This document shows positions 33,654-39,981 of a stretch of DNA of 64,000 bases, piece by piece. This DNA is from Xestospongia bergquistia (lineage: Eukaryota; Porifera; Demospongiae; Haplosclerida; Petrosiidae): contig OZ014419.1 of NCBI GenBank assembly GCA_963965975.1, positions 7,086,150 through 7,150,149 of the forward strand. The letters are read 5' to 3'. The position numbers and the translations under genes were made by a program. Below the pieces are notes generated by a model. That model was not told the origin of the DNA. It searched no databases and worked only from the letters and a program-made list of their open reading frames with translations. Position 1 is the stretch's first letter. The number at the start of each line of letters is the position of its first letter.

Positions 33654-35314
33654 TTTATTTTTTGTTTATTTCTAGACTATTACAATTGACTATATTATTT
33701 CGACATGAGGAAACCCCTGGTGTTGTAAGTAATTAATTACCTTATTAATACGTTTCTCTCTCTTGTCCCAGTGGTCTCTATTTGGTCATCCAGGACTTTT
33801 AAATCTTCCATCAAGTGGACCAGTAGATATTTATTATCAACTAATATCATCTTTATTACCTGAACGATGTAAAACAATGGCTTGGTCACTTGCTTTGACT
33901 GATGGAAAAGTGGGTGCGGACAAGTAATGATATTCATGACTTATTACATCCCTTATTAGGGCCGTTTTTGTTCTCGTTGTTCCTTTGGGAGCAGTTGCCG
34001 AGGGTGTGTCCTTAGCAATGCTATGACTGAGGTCTCTTTAAAACCAGGGGATCATATCTCTTTGTCATTTTCAAAGTTGTCCTCTGAGATTTTACAAGAG
34101 GTGATGTCATTTCATAATCAAATGGCTTCATGTATATATTTAGGTTAATAAAGTGGAGCCACACCCATCATTAGAAACTCGTTGGCCATCAACTGTTTCA
34201 TTACAAGATTGTCTTGATCTGTTTTCACAAAAGTTAGAAAATGCCTTAACATCACAGTACCATAATTATTCTAATTTTCAATATTACTATAGAGAGGTTC
34301 TTGGGTCTGATAATCCGTGGTGGTGTCCGACATGTAATCAAAATCAAGACGCTATAAGAGAATTGACAATATCTCATTTACCTTTTACACTAATTGTCCA
34401 TTTAAAAAGGTATATAACAGGGGCTACCTTTCCTTACTTATATTATTGTTACATTAGGTTTTTGTTTCATGATAATGTTGCCAGTAAAGTAGATACAAGT
34501 GTAGTCTTCCCTATGTCTTTATCTTCATCATCATTTCCTCATTTATCTCAAAATCTTTCTTCTGAACTAACTCTTTCTGGTTGTGTCTGTCATTTTGGAT
34601 GTAAGTGTAGTCTCTTCGTATCAATTAATCTCATTTCTTTTATAGCTGTTAATAGTGGACATTATACAGCTTATTCAAAGCAACCTGTTACTAATAAATG
34701 GTATTACTATAATGATGAGTCTGTTACTGAGGTAATAGAGTTGAGTGTGTGTGTGTGTCAGTAGGAGAGATATGAGATGAATTTTTTTTCAGATAATACC
34801 ATCTGAAAAAGACCAAGAAAGTGTGTATATTTTATTCTATCATCAACAAGGTGGGTGTGTTATGGGTGTGGTCAGCAATAAATGATGTCTTATATGTTCA
34901 GATTCTACTGTACTTAATTTACCCACTGAAAGAGGTGGGCGGTACCCTACTGAAGAGGAGGAACTCCTGCAATTAGAACCTTTATTGCGAATAATGAAGC
35001 CAAAGGTGCCCCTCCCTCCTCCACCTCCTCCTTTACCAATTAAAAAGTCCTCAAGTACAGGTAATAATAAATTACTTAAGCCACACTTCAAATTAATGAC
35101 ATGGTTGCTAGGCAACTTGGTAGAAATTGGAGAATCAACTGATATGCAGCTTCAACAGCAACTTGCTGCTTCACTAGGATTAGACATTCCAGCCGCAACC
35201 ACCTCATCAGGTTCAATAAAACGTTCTTCTTCAAATCCTCGTCTTTCTACTGATCCTTCATCATTAGATGGTGTTGTTTTAATGTCATATAAATTAAAGG
35301 CATTTGATGTCTAA
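31232..35314 (+). CDS. Ubiquitin-specific protease with RING-like insertion
   Basis: Deubiquitinase of the C19 family. An N-terminal Pro-rich region (PPGVDPADYQPK) precedes the Cys box GLLNLGNTCYMNAGLQCI (31715-31775). An acidic insertion follows (31850-32115), then the conserved QQDCQEFLAVLLDRLHEDI and the zinc-ribbon CCVCGH. Near 33345-33560 is a Cys-rich insert: CVICLEEM, CAAMMCSTC and CPVC, RING-like but lacking the usual His. Another Cys set (FCSRCSFGSSCRGC) and the second ribbon WWCPTCNQ follow, then the finger-to-palm strand LPFTLIVHLKRF. The His box is NSGHYTAYSK and the final box KWYYYNDESVTE. A Pro-rich, Ser-rich tail ends MSYKLKAFDV. The order resembles the USP4/15/32/19 group, but I cannot name an orthologue. 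Confidence 0.87.
31494..31557. repeat. Short foldback element in USP intron
   Basis: Imperfect inverted repeat: AGTCCCATTCCAAAGTCTCC at the left arm, and on the other strand AGTCTCATTCCAAGACTCC at the right arm, with about 20 bp between. The AGTCTCATTCC end resembles the perfect foldback at 38836-38869. Confidence 0.75.
33618..33652. repeat. (TAA)n microsatellite in USP intron
   Basis: About eleven TAA/ATA units directly after a splice donor. Confidence 0.95.
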
Positions 35315-35488: not shown

Positions 35489-36318
<830 letters not shown>

Positions 36319-37280
36319 TAGCCGGAGAACTGCAATTTTAACCCTTTTGTTCAATGTGCAAACTATATACGTATATTCGTGGAATAAAATTGTAGCCATG
36401 CTGTTTTACATAATATTACAGGCATTTACAGCCTCATTGTATCACCAACACAACTAGCAATTGCTATGTTAGTGTCTGATGAACCACCCTATTTTTTAGA
36501 ATTCCTGTAATCCACCAACAAACATGCATGTTGTGAATGTACAAAGTCAGGTATAGTATTTTAAAGGTTAAAAAAATTCAAATTAATACAAACTTATGCT
36601 GTCACACAGGAGTATGTTTACTGAAGGTATTACTAAACTTATACAGGATGTACAGGTATAGCAGTGGTACAACAACACTTTTGTCAGAATCTCTTGTTCA
36701 AACTCTAAAAATGTCCATGAGTATTATGTTCAACTAGTTAATAATTTAACTGAATTATTTGATGCAAGGCAAGGCTTTGTATCACATTTTAAAATGTTTA
36801 TTATTGACTACATGACAAAACAACTAGTAGAACAAAATTTTCTAATGACTGGATGGAAACAGGTTACAATTCAGTAATATTTTTATCAGCTATCTGGCTC
36901 TTTTATCACAGTGACATGAACAAATGCAATTATAGCAACAGTAAGACACAGACTAGTAGTGTGTGTTTGTATTGAAAATACATGTTAGTAAAGAGTGATA
37001 CTCAATGTTATGTTGAACTGGAGCACTCGAGGAACTAAAGGAGCTGTTATAAATTTAGATAAAAGCAACAAAAGATAATGAAGAAGAGTGTTTAGGTAAT
37101 GATTTTTATTTCTTAAGCCCCTATAATATTAAAATATGATAAAAATTATTATAATTAGTAGTGTTGTTCTAGTTTGCTTAAGTAGGACTAGTTTATTCTT
37201 GTCCATTAAAAATATAGCTTTAGTTTTGATTATTTTAAGGTAGTCGATGTTAGTAACATAGTTGCCGTTAATGAGATTCA
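36319..37280. other. AT-rich intergenic stretch
   Basis: About 960 bp of AT-rich DNA upstream of EBPL. Short open frames occur, but none has family character or splice-compatible neighbours. No repeat family or RNA gene is recognised. Confidence 0.5.
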
Positions 37281-37705
37281 TAAGCGTCACAGTGGCGCCC
37301 CACAAGAGCATGAAGACAAAATCTGACGTACATATAAAAAGAAACCAAAGCAGTCATGAGTGCCAGTGTGTTGTGGGCCAGCGTTCTGCAATGCATCAGA
37401 CCTCTGAGATGGTTACCAGCATACTCTACGGAGTATCCGAAAGGCCGACTAGGATAGGGCTGGTAGTCTCCCTTTAAACGAGAAGAGGCTGGTGTATTTG
37501 TGGTTCCCGGTTCCTGAATGCGAAATTCCCTAAGAGCTGGAATCCCGTACGGCTGGTTTTAAGTTAGGGCGACGCTCCAGCCAGGATTACCTCGCGAAGA
37601 CGAGGGTTACCAAGCCAGGTGGCGGTCCCAGCTAGCAATAGCAGGGAATCCTGGAGCCTAAGTGGAAGCCTGAGTGGGTGAGCGAGTAGGAATCGTTTGG
37701 GCAAC
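37281..37705. other. GC-rich, hairpin-rich block of unknown identity
   Basis: Composition jumps to roughly 50% GC in surroundings near 30%. No long reading frame fits. Local perfect hairpins abound: ATACTC/GAGTAT closed by TACG (37421-37436), GACTA/TAGTC (37447-37468), ATTCC/GGAAT (37525-37543), CCTCG/CGAGG (37590-37605), GCTA/TAGC closed by GCAA (37631-37642) and a bracket GCTCCA/TGGAGC (37574-37657). It abuts the poly(T) that marks the 3' end of the retrotransposon fragment. Candidates are a structured non-coding RNA or an untranslated part of a different mobile element. Confidence 0.55.
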
Positions 37706-37710
37706 ACACA

Positions 37711-38530
37711 AGGGTTTTTTTTTTAATTTTTTTAAAACTTTATTTTATTAAAACACAAAAGACACTCAATAGCAAAGATAATATGAAGAGCATCAAAAAC
37801 AATAGAAATAGGAGGTGAAGGATTTATGAAGAGTGATGATATTAACAGGTGAATGAATGAATAAATATGAACAACATGTACGCTATATTCCTGATAATTT
37901 TAAAGTAAATAAGAAATATTTGACTTGAACTGCCTTGCAGAGTTGAGATCTTTGAGTGATGAGGGAAGGGAATTCCACAGGGACATAGCACTGGGAAGGA
38001 AGGAGTTGAGGGTAGCAGAAGATCTGGAGAAGGGCAGGTCAGGTTTAAATGGTGGGAAGAACGTAAATTATAAGAGGACTGGTTTTGAAATGAAAAAGAG
38101 CCACCAGGAATGTAGAGCTTACTAAAGATGAACTTGTATAAAAGGACAAGCTTGGATGTTGTTCTACGGGAGGATAGAGAAGGAAGATTGAAGAGTTGTA
38201 GAAGTAGAGGGTAATCAGAGGTCCAATTTTTACTGCAGAGTTTTAGGGCAAAATGTTGAACTTTTTCCAATTTGTTGATGTTAGGAATGGAATATGGATC
38301 CCAAACAGACGAGCTGTACATAAGGATGGGGAGGATTAATGTCAAATACAATTTAATAAGAACAGAAGAAGTTATAGTCAAATTGATGATAGATGTGGCC
38401 AAGCAGTTTAGATTTATTTTGTGCATTAAGTTCTGTGTAGACAGAGTCAGACAAATAGTGTTGATAGTTTTGATGTACCTTACATGTACTATTCCAAAAC
38501 TAAATGCAATACTTGATAACTACATTTGAC
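37711..38530 (-). mobile_element. Non-LTR retrotransposon fragment (LINE, 5' truncated, decayed)
   Basis: The minus-strand frame 37842-38426 ends a reverse transcriptase: LIKLYLTLILPILMYSSSVW then DPYSIPNINKLEKVQHFALK, the thumb/C-terminal region of CR1/L2/Jockey-type LINEs. The frame then drifts. The expected SLWNSLPSSL block is present (37925-38010) but in another frame, so there is at least one frameshift. No endonuclease or RT catalytic core is seen upstream, so the copy is 5'-truncated. The 3' end on the minus strand finishes in an A-rich tail (poly-T on plus, 37711-37740). It is dead. Confidence 0.85.

Positions 38531-39981
<1,451 letters not shown>

Follow-up and report, generated by a model that had tools for sequence, protein, structure and literature searches.

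In the 64,000-nucleotide stretch of the sponge Xestospongia bergquistia analysed here (the window), a GC-rich island is very probably one member of a large family of RNA polymerase III (Pol III) type 3 genes, each of which, judging from its sequence, would encode a new structured RNA of ~355 nt. This reading follows from the promoter, the terminator, the limits of conservation, a compensatory change in the stem joining the RNA ends and the retention of promoters among copies. A first-pass annotation had offered two explanations for the island, a structured non-coding RNA or the untranslated region of a mobile element. The former is supported by the promoter, the terminator, copy conservation and the end-stem change, and not by folding energy.

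Gene layout and promoter

Alignment of 69 copies from the same genome showed that the conserved unit spans ~37267 to 37724 on the plus strand, wider than the limits of 37381-37705 first assigned to the island. Within it a distal element, a PSE, a TATA box, a body of ~352 nt and a T10 terminator follow one another in the layout of U6-type (type 3) Pol III genes, and the predicted RNA comprises ~352 nt plus a U-tail, ~355 nt in total. The features of the gene and its surroundings are as follows.

37087..37114 and 38657..38684 (left arm +): 28-nt inverted repeat, outside the gene, arms 93% complementary
37267..37281 (+): distal promoter element GTTAATGAGATTCAT, a single exact match in the window
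37298..37323 (+): PSE-like block CCCCACAAGAGCATGAAGACAAAATC, 97% majority identity in 69 copies
37328..37352 (+): TATA box GTACATATAAAAAG, then U6-like AAACCAAAGCA, common to both U6 genes
37362..37713 (+): RNA body, ~352 nt, start at G37362 predicted from the U6 register
37365..37373 (+): end-joining stem, 5' arm, of which 37366-37373 pairs with 37702-37709
37421..37436 (+): hairpin ATACTC-TACG-GAGTAT, probability 0.76-0.98
37590..37605 (+): hairpin CCTCG-CGAAGA-CGAGG, probability 0.96-0.99
37631..37642 (+): hairpin GCTA-GCAA-TAGC, probability 0.96-1.0
37702..37710 (+): end-joining stem, 3' arm, CAACACACAAGG in 41/41 copies of subtype A, CAACACAAC in 28/28 of subtype B
37715..37724 (+): T-run, predicted Pol III terminator, at least 6 T in 69/69 copies
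37730..38520 (-): LINE-like fragment, outside the gene, approximate limits, recognised as LINE by eye

The island is indeed GC-rich: 37362-37713 contains 54.3% GC against 34.3% for the window, and only 1 of 1273 sampled 352-nt stretches was equally rich. A protein-coding origin was rejected, as neither of two overlapping frames of the RNA body matched Pfam and the 18 variable sites of the antisense frame were spread over the codon positions (7/5/6). The T-run at 37715-37724, previously read as the poly(A) end of a LINE, belongs to the gene, since at least six T residues are kept in every one of the 69 copies while their flanks have diverged. A LINE-like fragment does follow the T-run on the minus strand, so the contact itself was correctly seen, but it is incidental to the gene.

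The genome contains two U6 loci above the Rfam cut-off. Alignment of the sequences upstream of the island and of both U6 genes revealed shared GTYAATGANATTCAT, CAAAATC, GTANATATAAAA and AAACCAAAGCA. The distal element is exact upstream of one U6 gene (L009) and carries 1 mismatch upstream of the other (L010), although its distance from the TATA box in the two U6 genes differs from that in the island; allowing up to 2 mismatches it has 9 matches in the window (2.28 expected) and is present in 69/69 copies. The TATA box is likewise found in 69/69 copies and a strict PSE pattern in 57/69, with the PSE-like block conserved between spacers of 66-67% majority identity. The motif CCCACAA lies 34 nt before TATAAAA in the island, in the U6 gene of contig C5 and in the RNase P loci L081-L083, and is absent from the U6 gene of contig C15. 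A combined pattern, CAAAATCNNNNGTANATATAAAANNAAACCAAAGCA, which was composed after the island and the two U6 genes had been aligned, matches 37317-37352 with 0 mismatches, its sole match in the window (0 expected).

When the C15 U6 promoter was used as an ungapped 70-mer, no other window position on either strand matched as well as the island (42/70; next 37); with the C5 U6 promoter the island and an A-rich part of the window both scored 41/70. RNase P promoters used as ungapped 70-mers did not rank the island first in the window, and the promoter pattern was not found at the genome's SRP and MRP genes. SINEs typically have an internal Pol III promoter and copies with target-site repeats; the promoter seen in the 69-copy alignment is external and is copied together with the gene. 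On these sequence matches, the island promoter is of the U6 type (Pol III type 3 class).

Copies of the gene and their chromosomal setting

The genome searched comprises 146 Mb in 21 contigs, with the window a piece of contig C9. A search with 37250-37715 returned 43 matches, of which 40 were near full length at 97-100% identity (40 of 432 candidates scored). A 29-base word from the RNA body, allowing up to 3 mismatches, matched 269 times genome-wide (reversed control, 0), and among the 100 matches listed all were exact, 65 on C1 and 35 on C2. Since this word sits in the 3' half of the RNA and is absent from the satellite units read (see below), 269 estimates gene copies and not satellite units. 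The 69 copies inspected, out of these 269 body matches, comprise 30 C1 copies retrieved by the body word and 39 outside C1, picked for likeness to the window copy from its 40 best matches; duplicate loci (L012, L073, L075), matches shorter than 400 bases and a third C7 copy were omitted from the alignment.

Among the 69 copies, mean pairwise identity was 99.3% for the body (37367-37708; 600 sampled pairs), with 28 distinct bodies, and 94-96% for the three upstream promoter blocks. The two spacers between the promoter blocks were 55-59% identical and the spacer from TATA box to start 70%, while the flanks fell to 47% (37100-37250) and 34% (37730-37850); some copies share further upstream flank, to ~37096 or beyond. 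All 30 copies retrieved by the body word alone (30 of 269, all on C1) keep the TATA box, the distal element and the terminator. Two subtypes were distinguished, A (41/69) and B (28/69); all B copies lie on C1, where the 30 body-word copies divide into 28 B and 2 A. A gapped sequence pattern gave 163 genome matches (control, 0), a count not comparable with 269 because the pattern fits 40/41 A copies and, owing to its gap length, 1/28 B copies, and because it includes satellite units.

Diverged or truncated RNA fragments were found at 22 loci (including L019, L033, L036, L041, L047, L051, L055, L064 and L066), in all cases (24/24) downstream of a full copy and on the same strand, which suggests turnover by unequal exchange. 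The uniformity of the bodies probably reflects gene conversion, selection against copies with a faulty RNA, or a combination of the two; for redundant copies it exceeds what selection alone easily explains. Gene conversion might proceed via cDNA, a route that would respect the limits of the transcript. The frames neighbouring the copies revealed no common gene family beyond tandem and segmental duplicates. At one locus (L036:2016-9445) tandem membrane-protein genes, transporter-like by eye, were duplicated along with the RNA gene at a spacing of ~5.6 kb. In the window, frames around the gene match EXPERA (EBP) (35489-36080, minus strand), ubiquitin hydrolase (34144-34764, plus strand) and Ras (39457-39705, plus strand).

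The LINE-like fragment, whose right limit lies between ~38407 and 38522, is missing from L003 and L005 between matching flanks. Relatives of its frame 37842-38519 occur in L013 and L032, but the frame has no Pfam match, so the label 'LINE' rests on inspection by eye. The 28-nt inverted repeat encloses both the RNA gene and this fragment. With as many as 2 mismatches allowed, the terminal 13-mer of the repeat was found upstream of 18/69 copies, downstream of 14, where the stretch scanned was shorter than planned in many loci, and on both sides of 5; the repeat was thus rejected as a general carrier, and is perhaps the vehicle of some copies.

None of the 40 near full-length matches, which were scored by their resemblance to the window copy, is more than 0.71 Mb from the nearest contig end. 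The exact 5' end of subtype A matched 173 times in the genome, with 100 of the matches listed, and of the listed positions on C3-C7, 56/58 were located within 1 Mb of an end where 21% were expected, in a test that includes some satellite units, collapses 25/26 terminal C6 positions into one and leaves out C1, C2 and C8. On C8 the same was true of 6 of the 8 subtype A 5' ends listed. By contrast, the body matches listed on C1 (28 Mb; 65 matches) and C2 (35 matches) are spread, often as tandem arrays, those on C1 at 0.2-13.8 and 24.4-28.1 Mb. An end-proximal location holds for most positions seen on the smaller contigs and not for the two largest.

Contig C6 starts with a 347-bp tandem repeat whose unit consists of the gene promoter and the 5' half of the RNA, without the 3' half or the terminator. 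The first T4 in these units lies at ~+199 to +216 from the start site in 6/8, and 2/8 have one at +7. A satellite word matched 435 times in the genome (control, 0). Of the 100 matches listed, C2 holds 32, near 16.1 Mb. The remaining 68, on C3-C6, are no farther than 41 kb from a contig end and without exception point outward, being on the minus strand at left ends and on the plus strand at right ends. The left ends of C9 and C12 and the right ends of C6 and C14 likewise finish in the 347-bp satellite, with a reversed satellite stretch in the C6 right end piece. Of 25 contig ends read, 7 were runs of N. An AT-rich repeat with GGCGCCAAAAA-like motifs was seen in L088 (660-1101), L089, L109 and L114, and in L088 and L114 it sits outside the satellite, toward the contig end. 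Four TTAGGG repeats, allowing 1 mismatch, had 0 matches in the genome. Telomere-like TTTAGGG repeats, a type best known from plants, were present at 2 of the 25 ends read, L110 (C14 left) and L113 (C15 right), in a genome whose HEXIM gene, 7SK-like gene and Metazoa_SRP match point to an animal.

RNA structure and known RNA families

The hairpins proposed from the window copy at 37421-37436, 37590-37605 and 37631-37642 were recovered with the pairing probabilities given above. The letters of a further proposed outer stem, GCTCCA/TGGAGC, are present, but its pairing probability is only 0.03-0.05 and a shifted GGATT/AATCC pairing competes with it (0.37-0.78). Folding energy, by which the island had been expected to stand out, was no better than in shuffled controls for 37381-37705 (z -0.84), nor was it unusual for the predicted transcript 37362-37713 (z -1.28); the minus strand gave z +0.74. 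Because the energy is not outstanding, other evidence was needed for a structured RNA.

Such evidence comes from the ends of the RNA. The stem 37366-37373/37702-37709 pairs with a probability of 0.92-0.99 in subtype A and 0.82-0.88 in subtype B. Subtype A carries GTGTGTTG near the 5' end and CAACACAC near the 3' end, subtype B GTTGTGTTG and CAACACAAC, and the stem ends are matched without exception (41/41 A, 28/28 B). Among 11 compared copies, one pair of this stem is changed on both sides between A and B; in addition, the A.A mismatch 37365/37710 becomes G-C between the subtypes. When the partner was shifted by 1-3 columns in the same 11 copies, no pair was changed on both sides. The covariation score of the end stem was matched by 3/500 shuffles, and the count of pairs changed on both sides (observed, 1) by 452/500; a single event may account for the end-stem change.

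The three hairpins are invariant across the 11 gene copies and so offer no covariation there. The loop of the first hairpin differs in the satellite and in the paralogue L051, which keeps the stem, while in satellite units this hairpin loses its outermost pair in 5/5 and its loop-closing pair in 2/5. At the position of 37590-37605, 2/5 old fragments or paralogues carry CTCGTCTTCRGACGAG and 3/5 a damaged form.

Rfam 15 gave no match to the island at its cut-offs, and the ten island matches obtained at E up to 10 were all far below gathering scores. At other loci the models scored above cut-off for U6 (2), SRP (1, to the Metazoa_SRP model), MRP (1) and RNase P (4). Since these RNAs are found elsewhere in the genome, the island is not U6, SRP, RNase P or RNase MRP RNA. 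Three of the RNase P loci lie at C5:8258235-8275789 (L081-L083) with a spacing of ~8.6 kb, and a weaker fourth at C5:7906790. The copy number makes an identity as telomerase RNA unlikely.

The possibility that the island is the genome's 7SK RNA, missed by Rfam, deserves separate attention. Its length, promoter type and U-tail would fit, no 7SK reaches the Rfam cut-off, and HEXIM is encoded (L086, C15:1731966-1732466, minus strand; Pfam E 4.5e-31, with an APFNSTQFLM stretch). In 7SK RNA, GAUC motifs in the 5' hairpin serve HEXIM and a 3' hairpin directly precedes the U-tract. GATC is absent from 69/69 island-family bodies, and in place of such a 3' hairpin the 3' end of the island RNA pairs with the 5' end. 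A better candidate exists in the only genome match to the Rfam 7SK model, which is far below cut-off (14.2 bits, E 9.67 for the genome):

L077:1369-1692, contig C8 ~830.2-830.6 kb (-): divergent 7SK snRNA candidate, ~279 nt, U6-type promoter, core CTCCCGAAGCTGTGCGCTCGG

At this locus the island's promoter pattern recurs, a predicted 5' hairpin holds two of the three GATC motifs, and T5 is preceded by a predicted 3' hairpin. By these features L077 is probably the true 7SK gene, and we regard an identity of the island with 7SK as very improbable.

Interpretation and comparison with known systems

Two further explanations place the island among mobile or selfish DNA. If it were the untranslated region of a mobile element such as a LINE, or the 5' end of one with a ribozyme, the adjoining LINE-like frame would be accounted for. 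That frame, however, is on the opposite strand and has no counterpart in L003 and L005, the flanks of the 69 copies are 34-47% identical, and their neighbouring frames share no family beyond the duplicates mentioned. As the repeated unit is a complete promoter-RNA-terminator gene, kept whole in 30/30 C1 copies, we give this explanation hardly any credence; a LINE 5'-end ribozyme had been abandoned when the gene layout of the copies became apparent.

A selfish or mobile repeat with a borrowed U6-type promoter, making an RNA useless to the cell and spreading at the DNA level with the help of the inverted repeat and the satellite, would agree with the many copies, often in tandem arrays, with the inverted repeat around some of them, with the degenerate fragments that lie downstream of full copies in 24/24 cases at 22 loci, and with a satellite built from part of the gene. 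Yet if such a repeat decayed, many copies of full length would be expected to have damaged promoters, whereas 30/30 body-word copies keep the TATA box, distal element and terminator beside diverged spacers, and the inverted repeat flanks both sides of only 5/69 copies. Because retained promoters stand next to diverged spacers, a purely selfish repeat is disfavoured, and we consider it improbable, if less so than the preceding explanations.

If, as we prefer, the island is the gene of a new Pol III RNA, the polymerase would be recruited through the U6-type upstream promoter, start at about G37362, produce an RNA of ~355 nt and stop in the T-run. The 5' and 3' ends of this RNA would pair and close a fold with several stable hairpins, and its U-tail could bind La-type proteins. 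We infer that the RNA is transcribed, forms a particle and is abundant; our best guess is that it serves as the RNA component of an abundant ribonucleoprotein, lineage-specific as far as seen, with many gene copies supplying the particle's RNA. Tandem duplication and exchange between subtelomeres are the probable means by which the copies spread. A bolder proposal, that this is a new class of abundant Pol III ribonucleoprotein RNA near chromosome ends and that outward transcription from hundreds of satellite promoters helps to organise or keep those ends, we put forward tentatively and hold to be rather unlikely.

To our knowledge, animals have few recognised Pol III type 3 RNAs. If the preferred reading is true, a new one with ~270 body matches that is absent from Rfam 15 constitutes a large annotation gap, and its uniform bodies in diverged flanks allow a direct test of a long-standing question, namely how RNA genes scattered over a genome remain so similar. 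No comparable RNA or satellite was recognised among the titles and abstract openings that targeted searches of open-licence literature listed, a body of text that mostly excludes subscription journals.

Several known systems share individual features with the family. U6 snRNA genes, whose promoter class is also that of 7SK and RNase P RNA, have the distal element, PSE-like block, TATA box and T-run seen in the island; in contrast, their transcript is unrelated to the island RNA, and there are 2 loci as against 269 matches to the island body word. In Neurospora the 5S rRNA genes, also of the Pol III kind, are numerous and scattered, with nearly identical bodies between flanks that are unrelated, and in being dispersed and near-identical they resemble the island family, but 5S is a known ribosomal RNA while the island RNA matches no known family.

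The class I RNAs of dictyostelids are a lineage-specific multigene family of non-coding RNAs of ~60 nt with an upstream promoter element, a conserved 11-nt motif, a stem that links the two RNA ends and shows compensatory changes, and T-runs from which Pol III transcription is judged possible (PMC7919456). Both families are multigene and have an upstream promoter element, an end stem and T-runs, with no homology claimed; the dictyostelid RNAs are ~60 nt long with one 11-nt motif, compared with ~355 nt and a near-invariant sequence for the island RNA.

The genome of Plasmodium falciparum is AT-rich, and its RUF6 genes are set in the neighbourhood of var genes. RUF6 is a family of 15 GC-rich Pol III non-coding RNAs with internal A and B boxes (PMC6974570). 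As described there, it resembles the island family in being composed of GC-rich, Pol III-type non-coding RNA genes, a type predicted for the island, and differs in its internal promoter and 15 members, the island promoter being external and its copies far more numerous. A common neighbouring gene family of the RUF6 kind was sought around the island copies and none was found.

Finally, SINE-derived satellites of reptiles are reported as tandem repeats formed from part of a repeat family and likely linked to subtelomeric regions (PMC10702118). They parallel the 347-bp satellite in consisting of tandem units made from part of a repeat family; they derive from SINEs, whereas the 347-bp satellite derives from an external-promoter gene, so that the units read keep the promoter.
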